DNA of 42,188 nucleotides from Candidatus Brevibacterium intestinavium (GTDB lineage Bacteria > Actinomycetota > Actinomycetes > Actinomycetales > Brevibacteriaceae): assembly GCA_019117545.1 (NCBI GenBank), contig DWZN01000141.1, positions 1-42,188 on the forward strand, given 5' to 3'. Under the pieces are notes generated by a model. The model made no database searches. It was not told the origin of the DNA and saw only the letters and a list, made by a program, of their open reading frames with translations. Shown here piece by piece: positions 34,867 through 42,188 of the stretch (position 1 is the first letter of the stretch; each line of letters begins with the position of its first letter). The translations under genes were made by a program, and so were the position numbers.

Positions 34867-36357
34867 TCAGGCGTCGACGCTGGTGCGGTAGTCGGACTCA
34901 CTGAGTGCGCCGACGACCGAGTGGCGGCGGCTGTAGGCGAAGTAGACGAGAGCGCCGACGGCCATCCACGCGCCGAAGACCGCCCAAGTGGTTCCGCCGA
35001 GGTTGATCATGAGGAACGCGCAGGCCAGCGCTCCGAGGGCCGGGACGACCGGGCCGAATGGCACCTTGAAGGAGCGTTCGAGATCGGGGCGCTTGAAGCG
35101 CAGGTAGATGACGGCGAGATTGACGAGGAAGAAGGCGAAGAGCGTGCCGATGCTCGTCGCGTCGGCGAGCTCTCCCAGCGGGATGAGGGCCGCAGTGATC
35201 GCCACCAGACCGCCGATGATGAGGGTCCCGGCCAGGGGAGTGCCGGTGCGTCGGGACACGAGGCCGAAGATCTTCGGCACCATGCCGTCGCGCGACATCG
35301 TCAGCAGGATCCGCGACTGTCCGTAGAGGACGGTGATGACCACGGAGAAGATCGCGAGCACCGCGGCGACGGCGAAGAGGAGGACGGCGAGGTTCGAACC
35401 GGTGATCTCCTCGACGATCTGGACCAGCGGAGCCTGAGCGGTCTCGAACCACTGCCACCTCCGTGCGCCGATCGCGGTCACGGCCACGAGCACGTACATC
35501 GAGGTCACGATCAGCATCGAGAGGATGATCGCCCGCGGCAGGTCGCGGCGGGGGTTCTTCGCCTCCTCGCCGGCAGTCGAGGCGGCGTCGAAGCCGATAT
35601 AGGAGAAGAACACGCTCGAGGCTGCCGCCGTGACCCCGGCCGCGCCCATCGGCATCATCGGGGCGAAGTTGCCGGCCTTGAACGCGGTGAAGGCGACGAC
35701 GGCGAAGAAGACGAGGATGCCGAGCTTGACGAACACGAGGATGGTGTTGGCCACGCCCGATTCCCAGGCCCCGCGCATGAGCAGCACGGTCGCCAGCGCC
35801 ACGACGATGAGGGCCGAGAGGTTGATGACCCCGCCCGGGTTCTCCGCCAGTCCCGGGCCGGTGGTCAGGGACGCGGGCAGTTCGAGGCCGAAGACGCGCA
35901 GGGTCTCATTGACGTAGTCGGCGGCCCCGACGGCGACCGCGGCGACGGAGACGGCGTATTCGAGCACGAGGCACCAGCCGCACACCCACGCCACACCTTC
36001 GCCGAGGGTGGCGTAGGAGTATGAATAGCTCGACCCGGACACCGGCACCATACCGGCCATCTCGGCATAGCTGACCGCCGAGAGCAGGGCGGTGACACCG
36101 GCGAGGACGAAGGCCAGCCACACCGCCGGACCGGCGACCGGCACGGCCTCGCCGAGGATGACGAGGATTCCCGTGCCCAGGGTGGCGCCGACGCTGATCA
36201 TCGTCAGCTGGAAGACGCCGAAGGTCCTGCGCAGACCGTTCGCGTGCCCTGTCTGCATGTCCGCGGCCATGGAGCTGATCGACTTCCGTCTCCCCAGCTG
36301 TCGGATCACTCCGGTGGAGGCTGACGGTGGGGTGGACGGGGTGTGCGAAACGGTCAT
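34867..36357 (-). CDS. APC-family amino acid permease (cationic amino acid transporter-like)
   Basis: The 496-residue protein has about twelve hydrophobic segments, starting with MISVGATLGTGILVILGEA and the AEMAGMVPVSGSSYSYSYATLGE segment typical of the CAT/YfnA group. The DAASTAGEEAKNPRRDLPRAII segment near residue 265 is the hallmark cytoplasmic loop of this group. It imports an amino acid, perhaps cationic, using protons; substrate is not proven. It is convergent with rlmB. Two ATGAATAT direct repeats lie directly upstream of the start and suggest regulation. Confidence 0.88.
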   Translation of the reverse strand: MTVSHTPSTPPSASTGVIRQLGRRKSISSMAADMQTGHANGLRRTFGVFQLTMISVGATLGTGILVILGEAVPVAGPAVWLAFVLAGVTALLSAVSYAEMAGMVPVSGSSYSYSYATLGEGVAWVCGWCLVLEYAVSVAAVAVGAADYVNETLRVFGLELPASLTTGPGLAENPGGVINLSALIVVALATVLLMRGAWESGVANTILVFVKLGILVFFAVVAFTAFKAGNFAPMMPMGAAGVTAAASSVFFSYIGFDAASTAGEEAKNPRRDLPRAIILSMLIVTSMYVLVAVTAIGARRWQWFETAQAPLVQIVEEITGSNLAVLLFAVAAVLAIFSVVITVLYGQSRILLTMSRDGMVPKIFGLVSRRTGTPLAGTLIIGGLVAITAALIPLGELADATSIGTLFAFFLVNLAVIYLRFKRPDLERSFKVPFGPVVPALGALACAFLMINLGGTTWAVFGAWMAVGALVYFAYSRRHSVVGALSESDYRTSVDA

Positions 36358-36385
36358 ATGAATATTCTTGCATAGTCATGAATAT
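36358..36385. promoter_or_regulatory. AT-rich direct repeat at the permease promoter
   Basis: ATGAATAT occurs at 36358-36365 and 36378-36385, 20 bp apart (two helical turns), right before the permease start on the minus strand. The patch is much richer in AT than its surroundings, and fits a regulator-binding site or promoter. Confidence 0.45.
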
Positions 36386-36465
36386 GTTCTCGGCCGGGAG
36401 TGCCGCGTTCCCGGGCGAGGGCGGTTGTCACCGTCGCGGATCTCACACCCTGGGCGCTCGAGGAC

Positions 36466-37287
36466 TCAGACCTCGGGAGTGAACCGACCGTCGTGCGCCA
36501 TCCAGCCGCCGTCGACGAGCTGCGAATGGCCGGTGACATAGCTCGAGGCGTCCGAGGCCAGGAACAGGACGGGACCGGCGATCTCGTGCAGGCGGCCCCA
36601 CCGGCCCAGGGCGGTCTTGTCCGCATAGGCGCCCCACCACTTCTCGTCGGCCTTGATCTGCTGAGTCAGCGGGGTGTCGAAGGGACCGGGCAGGATCGCG
36701 TTGACCCGCACACCCCGGTCGCCGAGCTCGCTGGCCAGGGTCTTCGTCAGCTGCACGACTCCGGCCTTGGCCGCCGCATAGAGTCCCTGCCCGGGCTCGA
36801 TCGCCAGGGCCCGGAACGAGGCGTAGGTGACGATCGAACCGCGCCCCCGGCCGGCCATCTCGCGGCCGAAACCGCGCATCAGCCGGTAGGTGCCCTTGAG
36901 ATTGAGGTCGATCACCCGATCGAACTCCTCGTCGCTGGTCGAGACCAGGCGCTTGCGCACATTCGCCCCCGGGGTGACCACGAGGACCTCGGCCTCGGCC
37001 CAGGCGGTGACGAGGGCCTCGACGGAAGCCGTGTCCGTGATGTCGACCTCGGCGGGCTGGGCCGATCCGGCACCCCGGCCGGCGATCAGTGAGGCGGTGT
37101 CGTCGGCGCCGGAGAGATTGAGGTCGGCGGCGATGACGTGGGCACCGGCATCGGCGAGTCCGATCGCACTGGCCTGACCCAGCCCGGAGCCGGCTCCGAC
37201 GACGACGGCGGTGCGTCCGCTGAGGTCGAACAGACTCGGCAGCGTGGGGTTGTGCTCATTCGTGGGCATCGTCTCGTTCGTCGTCAT
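36466..37287 (-). CDS. Short-chain dehydrogenase/reductase (SDR)
   Basis: The 273-residue Rossmann-fold protein has the NAD(P) motif VVVGAGSGLGQASA near residues 28-41, the catalytic SY(x)3K set in SIVTYASFRAL and YAAAKAGVVQLTK, and the RVNAILPGPFDTP segment. In place of the usual NNAG the sequence reads VTPGANVRK, which resembles the KduD/gluconate-dehydrogenase-like group. It probably acts on a sugar acid or polyol. It lies 51 bases after the DUF4032 gene with its own GGAAGGAT site, and may be the third gene of the ABC-DUF4032 operon. Substrate and operon membership are inferences. Confidence 0.88.
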   Translation of the reverse strand: MTTNETMPTNEHNPTLPSLFDLSGRTAVVVGAGSGLGQASAIGLADAGAHVIAADLNLSGADDTASLIAGRGAGSAQPAEVDITDTASVEALVTAWAEAEVLVVTPGANVRKRLVSTSDEEFDRVIDLNLKGTYRLMRGFGREMAGRGRGSIVTYASFRALAIEPGQGLYAAAKAGVVQLTKTLASELGDRGVRVNAILPGPFDTPLTQQIKADEKWWGAYADKTALGRWGRLHEIAGPVLFLASDASSYVTGHSQLVDGGWMAHDGRFTPEV

Positions 37288-37338
37288 CGGGATCCTTCCG
37301 TGGGGGTCGGTGCGGGGCGGGGCAGCCTCGGCGAGGTC

Positions 37339-38583
37339 TCAGAACTGTTCGCTGTCGACATAGCGGATCTCGTCGGGCAGGTTCGCCAGGTAGTCGACGA
37401 TGAAGTAGGCGATGGCCTCCATGATCGGGATGTCACGCTGTCGGGCCCTGGCCATGGTGCGCCGATGCTCGGCGAACTCGTAGAAGATCTGCCCGGGCTC
37501 GAGTTTGCGCGTGAGGTTCTCCGGAATCGCCTGGATGAGCGGTTTGTAGACTTCCTCGAGCCACCGGCGGGCGGCCTGCGACTCGTCGAGGTCGTCGACA
37601 TCGGTCAGCGCCGGGTCCGAACGGAACGAGTCGAGGTCGTTGAGCATCGCCCTGGCCTGATTCTCATTCGCCCCGATGCCGGTCAGGCGCAGCAGGCGCC
37701 GGGAGTGGTGGTTGGGTTCGACGACCTTCGGCTCGACGAGCAGGCTGATCCCGTCGAGGTCGGTCGTCACGGTCAGCTCACCGAGGTCGAAGCCGAGGTC
37801 GTTGAGGCGGCGGATGCGCTCGTCGATGCGCCAGCGCTCATTGACGCTGAACTCCTCGACCCGCGTCAGCTCCGTCCACAGGGCGCTGTAGGACTCGCAC
37901 AGCCGCTGACCGGCCTCCATCGGATCGGTCTCGGGGTCGACGAGGCCGGCGGCCTGCAGATCGAGGAAGTCCCCGGCGATGTTCATCCGCGCGATCCGCA
38001 GATCCATGTTCCGCTGACCGTCGGAGAGCTGATCGTGCAGCTCCCCGGTCTCCGCGTCGACGACATAGGCGGCGTAGGCGTCGGCGTCGCGGCGGAAGAG
38101 CGTGTTCGACAGCGAGACATCGCCCCAGTAGAACCCGACGAGGTGGAGCCGGGCCAGGAGCACGGCCAGGGCGTCGACGAGCCTGCCGCCGGTGTCCCGG
38201 GCGAGGTCGCGGGAGAACAGCGCGCGATAGGGCAGGGAGAATTCGAGGTAGGCGGTGATCAGCGCGCCGCTGAGCTTCTCACCGGTGGCGGATCTGCGGC
38301 CGCTGACAAAGGCCCGCGGCTCGACGAGGGGGACGTCGAGGTTGCCGAGCGCGCCGAGGATGTCGAACTCGCGCAGCGCCTGCCGGTCATCGGTCTCCTT
38401 GATGGCGAGGACCTCGTCGCCGATCTCGACATAGCGCACGACGTGGCGGGAGATGCCGCGGGGCAGACCGCCGAGCAGCGTTTCCGGCCACTCGTCGAGC
38501 GGCAGGTGCCAGGGCAGTTCGGCCAATGCACGGCGATCGGCATGGCGAACCGTGTGGATCTCGGGTGTCGGCGTCTCCGCCAC
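37339..38583 (-). CDS. DUF4032 protein with kinase-like catalytic residues
   Basis: The 414-residue protein matches the actinobacterial DUF4032 family, distantly related to lipopolysaccharide-type kinases. I see a full kinase-like set: K62 in LAIKE (beta-3 Lys), E72 in REFDIL (alpha-C Glu), D155 and N160 in GDVSLSN (catalytic loop), and D176 in VVDAETGE (DFG position). The second half, about 240-414, is a family-specific helical domain. It begins with GTG three bases after the stop of the ABC-like gene and is surely co-translated with it. The function of the family is unknown; phosphotransfer is my inference from these residues. No signal peptide or membrane segment is present. Confidence 0.85.
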   Translation of the reverse strand: MAETPTPEIHTVRHADRRALAELPWHLPLDEWPETLLGGLPRGISRHVVRYVEIGDEVLAIKETDDRQALREFDILGALGNLDVPLVEPRAFVSGRRSATGEKLSGALITAYLEFSLPYRALFSRDLARDTGGRLVDALAVLLARLHLVGFYWGDVSLSNTLFRRDADAYAAYVVDAETGELHDQLSDGQRNMDLRIARMNIAGDFLDLQAAGLVDPETDPMEAGQRLCESYSALWTELTRVEEFSVNERWRIDERIRRLNDLGFDLGELTVTTDLDGISLLVEPKVVEPNHHSRRLLRLTGIGANENQARAMLNDLDSFRSDPALTDVDDLDESQAARRWLEEVYKPLIQAIPENLTRKLEPGQIFYEFAEHRRTMARARQRDIPIMEAIAYFIVDYLANLPDEIRYVDSEQF

Positions 38584-38586
38584 GGC

Positions 38587-39294
38587 TCAGGAATCCGAGT
38601 CGGGAACCGAGGCCACGAGCGCCTCGGCGAGTTCCGGTTTCTCGACTCCGATGAGCCGACCGCGGTCGAGGAGCGCGATTCGGTCGCCGAGGACCTTCGC
38701 GTCCTCGAGATCGGAGGTGGCGTAGATGGTGGTCAGCTCGAACTCCTGCTGCAGGTCCTTGATCAGCGACAGGGTCTCGGCCTGCTGTTCGGGCACGAGG
38801 TTGACCACGGGCTCGTCCATGATCAGCACCTTCGGTTTGCGCACGACGGCTCTGGCCAGCGCCACGGTCTGCCGCTGCAGCCGGGTGAGGTCGCCGGGCA
38901 CCGAGTCGAGGACCTCGGCCATCCCGATCTTGTCCATCACGGTCTCGACCCGCTCCCTGATCTCCTCGGCCGGGAGGCCGTCGACGCGGAGGGCGAAGCC
39001 GAGGTTGTCGCGCACGCTCATGTGCGGGTAGAGGGCGTAGCTCTCGAGCGCCAGAGTCACGTCACGATCGTTGACGGCGGCATGGGTGATGTCGACGCCG
39101 TCGATGAGGATGGTCCCGGTCTTCGGGGTCTCGAGGCCGTGGAGCATCCTCAGGATCGTCGACTTGCCGGATCCGGACGGGCCGTAGAGGACGAGGAACT
39201 CTCCGGTGTCGACGAAGAGGTTGAAGGGGTGCACGGATTCGGATGTCGTGTTCTCGTAGACATGACTGAGGCCATTCAACGACACCGTTGACAT
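38587..39294 (-). CDS. Degenerate ABC-type ATPase (MalK/UgpC-like) without permease
   Basis: The 235-residue protein aligns along its length with the ATPase core of sugar-importer MalK-type proteins. Walker A is intact (GPSGSGKST, 38-46) and Walker B is VLIMDEP (156-162). Other key sites have changed: the Q-loop Gln is Glu (LESYALYPHM, E84); the signature LSGGQ is LTRLQ (136-140); the D-loop NLD is NLV (165-167); and the H-loop His is Ser (YATSD, S194). The C-terminal TOBE domain of MalK is missing and no permease gene is near. ATP binding seems possible, normal hydrolysis unlikely. I chose the ATG at 39294, after GAGGAGG. DUF4032 follows after three bases. Confidence 0.88.
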   Translation of the reverse strand: MSTVSLNGLSHVYENTTSESVHPFNLFVDTGEFLVLYGPSGSGKSTILRMLHGLETPKTGTILIDGVDITHAAVNDRDVTLALESYALYPHMSVRDNLGFALRVDGLPAEEIRERVETVMDKIGMAEVLDSVPGDLTRLQRQTVALARAVVRKPKVLIMDEPVVNLVPEQQAETLSLIKDLQQEFELTTIYATSDLEDAKVLGDRIALLDRGRLIGVEKPELAEALVASVPDSDS

Positions 39295-39364
39295 GTGTCC
39301 TCCTCTGAGTAACTCGGTGAGCAGCTGGTCGTCGGTGACCTGGCGGGGATGCTCAGTCCCTCTC

Positions 39365-39470
39365 ATCCTACGGGGTGGACCGGTTCGGTGCAGACAGATT
39401 TCGACAAAGCGTAGAGTGATTCTCAGCACGATGACAGTGCACCGATGCACACACCAGCCGAAAGTAGACT
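39365..39470. promoter_or_regulatory. Divergent promoters and LacI-type operator candidate
   Basis: On the minus strand TAGGAT (39365-39370) could drive the ABC-DUF4032 genes with a leader of about 64 bases. On the plus strand TAGACT (39465-39470) lies exactly 7 bases before the ATG of the first LacI gene. GTGCA-CCGA-TGCAC (39437-39450), a perfect inverted repeat in its arms, overlaps the -35 region of the LacI promoter. Confidence 0.5.
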
Positions 39471-39477
39471 GACGCAT

Positions 39478-40533
39478 ATGAAGGTCACGCTCGACGAGGT
39501 CGCCGCCCGGGCCGGAGTGTCCCTGGCCACGGTCTCGCGCGTCCTCGGCCGGCGCGGCGCGGTCGCCGACGCGACGCGGACGAAGGTCCTCGAAGCGATG
39601 AGCGAGCTCGGCTATTCGCGCTCGACGCTGCTCCAGGACGCGCCGAGGCGGCTCGTGGCCGTCAGCGCCCCCGGCAATCCCGAGCACTGGCAGGTCCAGG
39701 TCTGCACCCGCGTGTCCAAGGCCCTGCAGGATCACGATCTGCTCGTGACCCGTCCGCTGGTCGAAACCGATCCCGAGCCGCTGCAGGTCGCGATCGAGGC
39801 CGGGGCCATCGCGCTGGTGACACCGACGCTGACGAGCCTGGACACCGACATCCCCTGCATCCGCGTCGATGAGCAGTCCGCGGCCACTCTCGACGAACCC
39901 GGCGGGCAGGCGGCCGGGGGAGCACCCGTGTCGAGTGCCGCGGCGGGGGAGTCGGGACCTGCGACCGGGCCGGGCAGCGCCGATATCATCGCGGCCCGGC
40001 TCGACCTCGGCGGCGGGATGACCACGGCCTTCGAGCACCTGCGCGCGATCGGGCACCGGCGGATCGGCCTGATCTGCAACGACAGCGGCGAATTGGCCGT
40101 GCAGCTGATCCGCCGCTTCCTCGCCGAACATCCGGCCCGCAATCTCGGGCTTCGCCTCGAGGACTGGATCGCGCAGGTGCCGAAGTCGTTCTCGGGCGGG
40201 TCCCGGGCGGTGCTCGAGCTCAAGGACGCCACCTGCACCGCGGTCATCGTGCAGTCGGCGCTGCAGCTGCACGGGGCCCTGCACGGTCTGCGCAACCGCT
40301 ATCTGCAGGTGCCGCGGGACATGTCGATCGTCGGCTTCGGCGATTCGCCGACGATGAAGTTCACGGGTCCGCCGGCCACGGTGCTCGGACTCGACATCGA
40401 GGGGCTGTCGAATGCGCTGGTCGCAGCCACGCTGACGACTCTGCGCATCTCGACGACGGGACTGCCGACGGTGCCGCCGGTGTTCCGTCCCCGACTCATC
40501 GCCCGCACCTCGACGACGGCGGCGAGGCAATGA
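39478..40533 (+). CDS. LacI-family transcriptional regulator (first of a pair)
   Basis: The 351-residue protein has the LacI helix-turn-helix and hinge at residues 2-50 (VTLDEVAARAGVSLATVSRVLG) and a periplasmic-binding-protein-like effector domain after it (HLRAIGHRRIGLICND, VPRDMSIVGFGDSP). A Gly/Ala/Ser-rich insert of about 35 residues lies near 140-172. I chose the ATG at 39478 over one 11 codons upstream, because a TAGACT box lies exactly 7 bases before it. It overlaps the second regulator by four bases and is divergent from the ABC-DUF4032 operon, which is its likely target. Effector unknown. Confidence 0.9.
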   Translation: MKVTLDEVAARAGVSLATVSRVLGRRGAVADATRTKVLEAMSELGYSRSTLLQDAPRRLVAVSAPGNPEHWQVQVCTRVSKALQDHDLLVTRPLVETDPEPLQVAIEAGAIALVTPTLTSLDTDIPCIRVDEQSAATLDEPGGQAAGGAPVSSAAAGESGPATGPGSADIIAARLDLGGGMTTAFEHLRAIGHRRIGLICNDSGELAVQLIRRFLAEHPARNLGLRLEDWIAQVPKSFSGGSRAVLELKDATCTAVIVQSALQLHGALHGLRNRYLQVPRDMSIVGFGDSPTMKFTGPPATVLGLDIEGLSNALVAATLTTLRISTTGLPTVPPVFRPRLIARTSTTAARQ

Positions 40534-41633
40534 GCGAAGGCAAGGGCCCGGTGCCCGGCGGGCAGTCGCCGCCGGAGCACCGTCATGTGCGGCTGGCGGA
40601 GATCGCCGGCACGGCCGGAGTGTCGAAGGCCACCGCCTCCCGGGCGCTGCGCGATCCCGAATCGGTCTCAGCGGCGTCCCGGACGAAGGTGCAGCAGGCC
40701 CTGGCCATCCTCGGCGCCGCCGGCCACAGCACGGGCCCCGGCCGGTCCGGGCAGCCGCCGACGCCGGAGGACGGAGGCGGGTCGCCGATGATCGCGCTGA
40801 TCAAACCCGCCGTGTCGGCCGGCAACGTCGACCCGTATTCGCGGCTGGCGGAGATCCTGACGAACCGGATGTTCGGTCTGCGCATCGCCGTCGTCCACAT
40901 CGAAGCCATCGCCGAGCGCAATGCGATCCTGGCCGAGACGCTCCTCGGCGCCGAGCACGGCGGGCCCACGGTCGCCGGTGCCGTCGTCGTCGGCGGGGGA
41001 GCGGCCGGGGAGCTGGCCGGGATGCTCGCCGCACGCGGGCTGCCGCTCATCCGGATCTCCAATGCCCGCCACGACGACGGGATCCCGCGCATCTACCTCG
41101 ACGCCACCGGCGGCATCGACACCGCCGTCGCCCATCTCGTCCACCTCGGGCATCGCCGCATCGGTCTCGCGGTGCTGCGCGATTCGGCGGCACCGGCGCG
41201 CATCGCCGGGTTCCGCCGCTCGATGGCCGGCATCCTCCACATCCCCGCGACCCGCGATCAGGCTCCCGTCGTCGAGGCGGCCGGGGGTGCGATGGCCGGG
41301 GTCGCGGCTGCCGAGGAGCTCATCGACCTGCGCTGCACGGCCGTCATCGCCTGCGCCCCCTCGCTGTCCTTCGGCCTGCTCGAGGCCGCCCAACGGCTGC
41401 GCCTCGATGTGCCCCGGGACCTGTCGCTGCTCACGGTCGGCGACGTGCCCGATGCCGATGTCGTCGAGCCGCCGCTGTCGCAGGTCGTCTACGACTGGGC
41501 GATGGTCGCGCAGTCGGCGATCGATGAGATCCGGGCGATGATCGCCTCCGGGGAGTCGGGTGCGCACGTGGACTACACGGTCGATCCCGATCTCGTGCTG
41601 CGCTCCAGCTCGGTTCCCCCGCAGCGTCGCTGA
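40530..41633 (+). CDS. LacI-family transcriptional regulator (second of a pair)
   Basis: The 367-residue protein has a disordered N-terminus of about 18 residues, the LacI helix-turn-helix at about 20-70 (VRLAEIAGTAGVSKATASRALRDPESVS), a Gly/Pro-rich linker and an effector domain (HLVHLGHRRIGLAVL, VPRDLSLLTVGDVP). It overlaps the first regulator (ATGA), so the two are made together and could form a mixed complex. The two are clearly different in sequence, so this is not a recent duplication. Its neighbour on the other side is otsB, convergent; whether it also touches trehalose metabolism is unknown. Confidence 0.9.
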   Translation: MSEGKGPVPGGQSPPEHRHVRLAEIAGTAGVSKATASRALRDPESVSAASRTKVQQALAILGAAGHSTGPGRSGQPPTPEDGGGSPMIALIKPAVSAGNVDPYSRLAEILTNRMFGLRIAVVHIEAIAERNAILAETLLGAEHGGPTVAGAVVVGGGAAGELAGMLAARGLPLIRISNARHDDGIPRIYLDATGGIDTAVAHLVHLGHRRIGLAVLRDSAAPARIAGFRRSMAGILHIPATRDQAPVVEAAGGAMAGVAAAEELIDLRCTAVIACAPSLSFGLLEAAQRLRLDVPRDLSLLTVGDVPDADVVEPPLSQVVYDWAMVAQSAIDEIRAMIASGESGAHVDYTVDPDLVLRSSSVPPQRR

Positions 41634-41721
41634 CCAGTCAAGGGCCGCTGCAGCGGCGGGGGCGCGGCTCGAGTCCGAGGTCGCCGGCGAGAGCAGGGCT
41701 GCGGCCATCGCGGGAGCCGGC

Positions 41722-42188
41722 TCAGGCGCGATCTCGGTCGAGGTGCTCGGCGCGGGCCGCGGACAGCCGCTCGAGCAGGAGCGCGACGGCCGCGGGGTCG
41801 GCGATCCGGCACTGCGCCCGCGTCGGGGCGCGCCCGACCTTCACCGACAGCCCCGCGGAGAGCGAGGGCTCGGCGGCGTTCGGGTCGCTGAGCTGCTCGA
41901 GGGCGGCGAAGGCGTCCTCGTCGGTGACGTCGTCGCCGAAGTACGCCATCGCGGTGGGCTGCTCGGCTCGGGCCAGCAGCCGCAGACCGTCGCCCTTCGT
42001 CGCCTGCTTGACCGCGAGTTCGGTGATGTCGTGGCCTTCGATGACGCGGATGTCGGGGTAGTCCGCGGACACCGCAGCGGCGTGATCGTGCAGGGTCGCG
42101 GCGAGTTCGGGGTCGAGGCCGCGGGTGTGGACGGTTCGCGAATACGGTTTGGCCTCGACGCGGACACCGGAGAATCCGTCCCGGTCCG
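41722..42188 (-). CDS. otsB: Trehalose-6-phosphate phosphatase, C-terminal part (cut by window end)
   Basis: About 155 residues of the C-terminal half are present; the start lies beyond the window. The visible protein has VRVEAKPYSRTVHTRG near its beginning and the HAD-family motif YFGDDVTDEDAF with its Mg-binding Asp residues, both typical of OtsB, which removes phosphate from trehalose-6-phosphate. The end has a short helical tail. The frame is open up to the window edge. It is convergent with the second LacI gene; a short palindrome GCCGCTGCAGCGGC (41644-41657) lies between them. otsA is probably just outside. Confidence 0.9.
   Translation of the reverse strand, partial: DRDGFSGVRVEAKPYSRTVHTRGLDPELAATLHDHAAAVSADYPDIRVIEGHDITELAVKQATKGDGLRLLARAEQPTAMAYFGDDVTDEDAFAALEQLSDPNAAEPSLSAGLSVKVGRAPTRAQCRIADPAAVALLLERLSAARAEHLDRDRA

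Follow-up and report, generated by a model that had tools for sequence, protein, structure and literature searches.

A degenerate MsiK-type ATPase kept beside a kinase-like DUF4032 protein in Brevibacterium

Introduction

The ATPase MsiK serves several ATP-binding cassette (ABC) importers, those for sugars in streptomycetes, and is usually encoded outside the importer gene clusters, as described in the available sections of PMC6167110. A regulatory role has been described for the Escherichia coli importer ATPase MalK, which regulates MalT (available sections of PMC10427625). The present analysis concerns a relative of these ATPases in a 42,188-nucleotide stretch of Candidatus Brevibacterium intestinavium (contig DWZN01000141.1; hereafter the window), where a degenerate MsiK-type ABC protein directly precedes a kinase-like protein of the DUF4032 family. 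An earlier note on this DNA had suggested a possible new signalling unit comprising these two proteins, a short-chain dehydrogenase/reductase (SDR) and two LacI-family regulators. All five genes are present; instead of a new unit, however, the locus represents the derived state of a pair, intact MsiK with DUF4032, that occurs commonly in the class.

The two central genes and their relevant parts are as follows.

38587..39294, minus strand: degenerate, C-terminally truncated MsiK-type ABC ATPase, 235 amino acids (PF00005 match and motif reading)
39157..39183, minus strand: ABC Walker A GPSGSGKST, residues 38-46, retained
39022..39045, minus strand: ABC Q-loop region ESYALYPH, residues 84-91, with Glu for Gln; YALYPHM retained as in MsiK
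38875..38889, minus strand: ABC signature LTRLQ, residues 136-140, replacing LSGGQ
38809..38826, minus strand: ABC Walker B LIMDEP, residues 157-162, retained
37339..38583, minus strand: kinase-like DUF4032 protein, 414 amino acids (domain match, invariant catalytic set, structural matches)
37882..38583, minus strand: its kinase-like N-terminal region, residues ~1-234 (K62, E72, D155, N160, D176; PF06293)
37390..37881, minus strand: PF13224, the DUF4032 domain proper, residues ~235-398 (profile match; gone in loci L094 and L095)

The degenerate ABC protein

The motif losses described in the earlier note are all correct: the Q-loop Gln has become E84, LSGGQ reads LTRLQ, the D-loop Asp is V167 and the H-loop His is S194. 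Its statement that Walker A (GPSGSGKST) and Walker B (LIMDEP) are retained is likewise correct. Loci were compared among the best 80 of 296, comprising 24 other Brevibacterium and 56 non-Brevibacterium loci; within this set the nearest named relative is B. renqingii (93% identity for DUF4032, 97% for the ABC protein). The same four losses occur in 24/24 other Brevibacterium loci and thus reflect neither chance nor sequencing error. All of these proteins have 235 residues (246 in L003), Glu at the Q-loop, an NLV D-loop and a signature of the form L[TS]xLQ, with the H-loop His replaced by Ser, Ala or Glu.

A further feature, beyond those first noted, is the loss of the C-terminal OB/TOBE domain, which was absent from the window protein in a domain profile search; the protein stops after the nucleotide-binding domain (NBD), and full-length relatives carry OB_MalK (L026) or OB_MalK with TOBE_2 (L082 and L100). 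The window protein scores 97.6 bits against PF00005, its best NCBIfam model is UgpC at 197.6 bits (far under the cut-off of 432), and its identity to intact MsiK-type members is ~42-51%. Comparison of the sequences establishes that the ABC protein descends from MsiK.

When 18 degenerate and 30 intact ABC sequences were compared, the positions kept in at least 88% were Tyr13 (which we take to be the position of the adenine-stacking aromatic), G38, G41, G43, K44 and T46 of Walker A, D160 E161 P162, Y86-M92, N97, F100-L102 and Q140 R141, while Q84, G139, S164, D167, H194 and the tail were lost in the degenerate forms. Such a pattern would befit a protein able to hold a nucleotide and unable to form the hydrolysing dimer. 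Direct motif readings cover L002-L025, L084-L088 and L091-L095 (some being the same record under two identifiers); for 38 core Brevibacterium genomes the degenerate state was deduced from an identity of 81-100% with the window protein.

Selection and linkage to the kinase

The median ratio of nonsynonymous to synonymous substitution rates (dN/dS) of the ABC gene is 0.137 (Nei-Gojobori, 293 pairs, 25 sequences), and the corresponding medians are 0.171 (DUF4032), 0.183 (SDR gene), 0.149 and 0.229 (the two LacI genes), 0.119 (RlmB) and 0.164 (CysS), from 21 to 25 sequences per gene. This strong purifying selection, together with a reading frame that is open in 24/24 Brevibacterium loci, rules out a pseudogene.

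Apart from selection, the distribution of the gene ties it to the kinase. Among 60 Brevibacteriaceae genomes, PF13224 was found in 47, the kinase domain in 49 and the degenerate ABC gene in 45, its matched stretch lying 12-162 nucleotides from that of the kinase in 45/45. The degenerate gene was found in 0/11 kinase-less genomes (threshold E<=1e-42), four of which have an ABC match that was in each case read as intact (G036, G054, G055, G021). The four kinase-bearing genomes without the degenerate gene comprise two with intact MsiK and two with an empty slot. Linkage of the degenerate ABC gene to the kinase is thereby established within one family.

As the earlier note had observed, the DUF4032 start follows the ABC end after 3 bases; the ABC stop, the 3-nucleotide gap and the GTG start share one frame in 24/24 Brevibacterium loci (22 with TGA, 2 with TAA). 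Fusion by stop-codon readthrough was rejected as a requirement, since two of these loci have TAA, not TGA, despite matching frames. Separately, an unplaced 229-residue fragment (P0016) joins the ABC end and the DUF4032 start in one frame; it may be a sequencing error and is not counted as evidence.

The one-frame junction with its 3-nucleotide gap would also suit the idea that the ABC frame survives mainly through coupled translation of DUF4032, its product being inactive, and the loss of the ABC gene without kinase loss in G010 and G019 is in keeping with it. Nevertheless, amino-acid selection is about equal to that on the housekeeping neighbours; Walker A, Walker B and YALYPHM are kept over deep divergence while trans-acting motifs vary; and the gap is not constant, as it differs from 3 nucleotides in divergent loci (~60 nucleotides in L094). 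We consider such a translational relic quite improbable.

The ancestral pair in other lineages

The slot upstream of DUF4032 in non-Brevibacterium loci holds a full-length MsiK-type ATPase of 364-382 residues, with FQNYALYPH, LSGGQ, SNLD and VTHD intact in 51/51 scorable cases; the remaining 5 of the 56 loci are partial, at contig ends or without a slot ATPase. MsiK lies within 1 kb of DUF4032 in 47 of these 56 loci and at 1.3-2.4 kb in 7, and was not found in 2, one of which has only 56 upstream bases. In 46/56, OtsB is encoded no more than 6 kb away on the same strand. Intact homologues of the ABC gene, which the earlier note would have counted against a dedicated unit if they stood next to permeases, thus exist, but in the same slot by the same kinase, and at L112 beside permeases as well as the kinase. 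At L112 (8480-14063) DUF4032 is the first gene of what seems to be an operon, the others encoding a solute-binding protein, a pair of importer permeases and MsiK.

DUF4032 was present in 111/119 genomes sampled from the order and 103/197 from the class, and Corynebacterium glutamicum also has it. Loci were sampled from 20/111 of the matched order genomes, 20/103 of the class genomes and 20/33 of another search (4 of them in the order). These loci were hand-chosen, mostly one per family (one or few per family for the order), and gene predictions at some distant loci were used where Pfam confirmed them. MsiK lies within 1 kb of DUF4032 in 21/24 loci of the order sample, at 5.3 kb in one and not in two, and its motifs are intact wherever it is present. 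On these gene neighbourhoods the MsiK-DUF4032 pair is judged old and common in the class.

Permeases are rarely close to the pair, as two MalG-type queries matched only 4 and 9 of the Brevibacteriaceae and order loci. The permease-less state is thus no sign of novelty, since the MsiK gene generally lies away from those of the permeases it serves (available sections of PMC6167110).

Timing of the degeneration and later losses

The same LacI pair and SDR gene accompany an intact full-length MsiK in two other Brevibacteriaceae genera (L082, L083), and a third genus (L086) has a degenerate ABC protein of 226 residues with Asp at the Q-loop, LTSAQ for the signature and Ser for the H-loop His. All degenerate forms constitute one clade (100/99) in the ABC tree, in which branches are long and the bootstrap had not settled. 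Two sequences in that tree, L112 and L117, come from other orders; L112 was wrongly labelled as an order member, with no effect on the degenerate clade. L086 groups with Brevibacterium in the DUF4032 tree (SH-aLRT 99), with L082 and L083 outside. These sequences are best explained by one degeneration event, in an ancestor shared by Brevibacterium and L086. In G030 and G039 (L094, L095) the PF13224 domain was lost later, and a kinase domain with the full catalytic set still adjoins the degenerate ABC gene. These two loci provide a natural dissection of the two domains of the DUF4032 protein.

Loss of importer permeases

MalG-type permeases (E<=1e-20) have a median of 1 (range 0-4) in the 45 degenerate-ABC genomes and of 11.5 (range 3-68) in 18 genomes whose kinase gene has an intact MsiK next to it. 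The latter are 16 genomes of the order sample together with G057 and G059; permeases were counted for 18 of the 24 sampled order genomes, G221 and G280 being outside the median. The counts of G057 and G059 (at least 10 and 19) are lower bounds, with 42 of 45 and 42 of 63 candidates scored, and rise to 18 and 24 at E<=1e-8; G058, with all 46 candidates scored, has one match at E<=1e-20, or nine when the threshold is relaxed to E<=1e-8.

Nearly all of the remaining permeases are provided for. A MalK-type ATPase lies within 10 kb of 56/58 permeases in the 58 genomes without an intact slot MsiK (47 by threshold search and 9 by tblastn), while only 2/29 permeases in the two intact sister genera have one nearby, the thresholds differing between these searches (E<=1e-42 with query P0001, tblastn, and E<=1e-50 with the MsiK query in the sister genera). 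The two permeases without a nearby ATPase are near a contig end in G016 and on a 5.3-kb contig of the genome to which the window belongs. Thus, with most permeases lost and nearly all the rest accompanied by their own ATPases, the slot copy seems clientless and could lose catalysis. Also within Brevibacterium, at L100 (7925-10616), an intact MsiK paralogue adjoins a gene for an FGGY carbohydrate kinase, ~6 kb from a permease gene; the L100 coordinates were confirmed with Pfam.

These importers are the basis of a competing proposal, in which the degenerate protein would be a decoy NBD with a retained permease-docking surface, displacing intact MalK-type ATPases from the remaining sugar importers and so shutting these down under LacI control, the kinase being a separate neighbour. 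The YALYPHM...N..FAL stretch, which in MalK is situated at the cleft for the permease coupling helix, is among the best-kept parts of the protein; a single intact MsiK-type paralogue together with one or two permeases is found in many core genomes; and the LacI regulators are divergent to the ABC gene. However, 8/45 degenerate genomes (G013, G015, G026, G030, G031, G039, G047, G050) have no MalG-type permease at E<=1e-20, which leaves little for a decoy to inhibit, and the kinase linkage in 45/45 genomes is left unexplained. A decoy is, in our judgement, distinctly unlikely.

The kinase-like DUF4032 protein

K62, E72, D155, N160 and D176, recognised earlier as retained residues of a kinase-like site, are invariant in 135/135 DUF4032 sequences (133 distinct; a few, such as L025 and L091, are from the same record). 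By analogy with known kinases, they may be assigned to the catalytic Lys, the Glu, the Asp and Asn of the catalytic loop and the metal-binding Asp, respectively. The window protein matches PF13224 with 188.5 bits (cut-off 23.8) and PF06293 (Kdo) with 22.9 bits (cut-off 21.3), the latter score reaching 35.7 bits in L094 and 38.6 bits in L120. Its top structural matches are kinase-like and include small-molecule kinases of the protein-kinase-like type. The structural model is weak (mean predicted local distance difference test, pLDDT, 66.1; predicted template modelling score, pTM, 0.47), the catalytic loop being its worst part, probably because of the narrow alignment of 51 sequences with 50-92% identity to the window protein. 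A PDB sequence search with the DUF4032 alignment gave nothing beyond a chance-level match to FMR1 (E 0.8), and no paper on DUF4032 or PF13224 was found among open-licence PMC papers.

Several loci deserve mention in their own right. Enolase or the fructose-1,6-bisphosphatase GlpX is encoded downstream of DUF4032 in L113, L114, L115 and L119 and in L106, L107 and L109; a metallo-beta-lactamase-fold gene precedes DUF4032 in L110, L111 and L157, which belong to a large-genome family of the class; and in L093 (G048) a frame break near the DUF4032 C-terminus (tblastn) accompanies a split LacI1 gene, reflecting either a draft error or a real loss.

The occurrence of DUF4032 beside enolase, fructose-1,6-bisphosphatase or importer genes in other orders argues for a pathway-level association rather than a fixed MsiK complex. 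Accordingly, both genes might act in the control of sugar uptake and central carbon without contact between their products, the degenerate protein doing something unrelated, e.g., binding RNA or LacI. Against this, none of the 60 family genomes was found to have the degenerate protein but no kinase, and we regard linkage without contact as unlikely.

Proposed function

The reading that we favour, with roughly even chances, is that the ABC protein is a retired MsiK and most likely serves as a non-transporting, nucleotide-binding partner of the DUF4032 kinase, thereby exposing a second role of MsiK. Ancestral MsiK would have both powered a large number of sugar ABC importers and worked together with the adjacent kinase. 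The lineage of Brevibacterium and its sister genus may then have lost most of its sugar importers, those remaining having their own ATPases, after which the slot copy would have lost the OB/TOBE domain, the signature, the D-loop and the H-loop, with the Q-loop Gln becoming Glu or Asp, in an order of events that we infer. It would have kept Tyr13, Walker A and Walker B, which make up the nucleotide pocket, and, by the Q-loop, the YALYPHM surface. Its present role could be that of a non-hydrolysing, monomeric ATP/ADP-binding subunit or allosteric sensor in contact with the kinase, and the kinase, if active as its residues suggest, may phosphorylate a substrate in carbohydrate metabolism. That a conserved neighbourhood points to a protein complex is likewise a supposition. 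The earlier note had proposed an ATP-sensing, non-transporting partner of a kinase; a degenerate, apparently non-transporting member of a conserved pair is borne out, while a complex of the two proteins, modelled as a fused chain with a pTM of 0.53, is a proposal.

A number of observations weigh against the favoured reading. The fused-chain ABC-DUF4032 model with that pTM was built on a shallow paired alignment and gave no predicted aligned error, so that no claim is based on it, and only 12/161 conserved kinase positions changed with the degeneration of MsiK, so that there is no clear interface signal. G010 and G019 (L089, L090) lost the ABC gene and kept DUF4032, which implies that the kinase is not always dependent on the ABC protein, and in L088 the Walker A Lys is replaced by Arg, a change that would make nucleotide binding weaker in that protein. 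Because the difference in permease number (Mann-Whitney P 2e-10) comes from a single clade, it counts as one event, and the P value is not independent evidence; furthermore, the order genomes G221 and G280, whose slot lacks MsiK, nevertheless encode 20 and 9 permeases, respectively, which means that import does not require the slot copy. L094 and L095 fall inside Brevibacteriaceae in the ABC tree but outside it, on a long branch, in the DUF4032 tree, the latter placement being taken for an artefact of their divergence. Finally, the pair is far less regular outside the order (9/20 loci elsewhere in the class), and MsiK lies directly upstream of DUF4032 in 1/16 further loci of the phylum sample, three of which are from the class; the adjacency that the earlier note asked about thus holds in 21/24 order loci and is lacking directly upstream in 15/16 elsewhere in the phylum.

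An extension of the favoured reading, possible but rather doubtful, is that MsiK of Actinomycetes generally moonlights, acting with the DUF4032 kinase as its ATP-dependent partner or target, in a hitherto undescribed circuit tying sugar uptake to central carbon metabolism, in which case Brevibacterium would be a natural separation-of-function mutant retaining the circuit role only.

Neighbouring genes and the intergenic region

The remaining features of the locus are listed below.

36466..37287, minus strand: SDR oxidoreductase (Pfam-type domain match, locus comparison)
39317..39356: near-invariant block of ~40 nucleotides immediately before the ABC gene, a candidate for an operator or leader
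39416..39429: GTGATTCTCAGCAC, candidate regulatory site, invariant in 13 aligned Brevibacterium intergenic regions
39478..40533, plus strand: LacI-family regulator 1 (LacI1), divergent from the ABC gene
40530..41633, plus strand: LacI-family regulator 2 (LacI2), overlapping LacI1 by 4 nucleotides

The two regulators do overlap, as first described, but they stand back to back with the ABC gene, from which they diverge, and do not converge on it. The SDR gene neighbours the pair in most Brevibacteriaceae loci read and was not found in L094 and L095. Since the LacI pair and the SDR gene also occur in L082 and L083, where MsiK is intact, both predate the ABC degeneration; they are features of the region, and their membership of a signalling unit is at most putative. 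The block at 39317-39356 is nearly invariant across 13 Brevibacterium loci (L024 departs), the median synonymous divergence (dS) of the ABC gene being 0.56, and this block and that at 39416-39429 are candidates, from their conservation, for LacI operators or a leader. No exact palindromes with arms of at least 6 were found in the window or in common among the Brevibacterium loci, and Rfam gave no match at the gathering threshold in 36000-42188.

Significance and comparison with known systems

Because the pair persisted in a lineage that dropped transport, a possible second function of MsiK can be tested directly there, and the retention of the pair points the search for the kinase substrate to sugar metabolism; DUF4032, moreover, is a widespread kinase-like family. 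MsiK as a shared ATPase (available sections of PMC6167110) and MalK regulating via MalT (available sections of PMC10427625) are already known. Among open-licence PMC papers, nothing was found on a degenerate ATP-binding ABC protein in Brevibacterium, and none of the 8 papers listed out of 414 matches dealt with an MsiK-kinase link in Micrococcales; the degenerate MsiK and its link to the kinase seem new, as a variant.

Among known systems, the ATPases MsiK, UgpC and MalK (CUT1) share with the window protein the NBD sequence, Walker A and B, YALYPHM and the slot by DUF4032. The window protein differs in having no LSGGQ, Q-loop Gln, D-loop Asp, H-loop His or any of the OB/TOBE domain, and nearly all permeases in degenerate-ABC genomes have another ATPase close by. 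The MalK-MalT system of E. coli offers a precedent for an importer ATPase with a second, regulatory partner (available sections of PMC10427625), although there the partner is a transcription factor of the STAND type rather than a kinase, and MalK is still a working transporter ATPase. On the kinase side, Kdo/WaaP, APH(3'), FN3K, Bud32/PRPK and the actinobacterial glucosamine kinase (PMC6520443, from the sections available) resemble the DUF4032 protein in the N-terminal kinase-like domain with a full catalytic set, while the latter differs from these kinases in its extra PF13224 domain, its own conserved motifs and, in the order, its MsiK neighbour. Within the DUF4032 (PF13224) family itself, of which the window protein is a member, most sampled members from the order adjoin an intact MsiK, whereas here the neighbour is degenerate.

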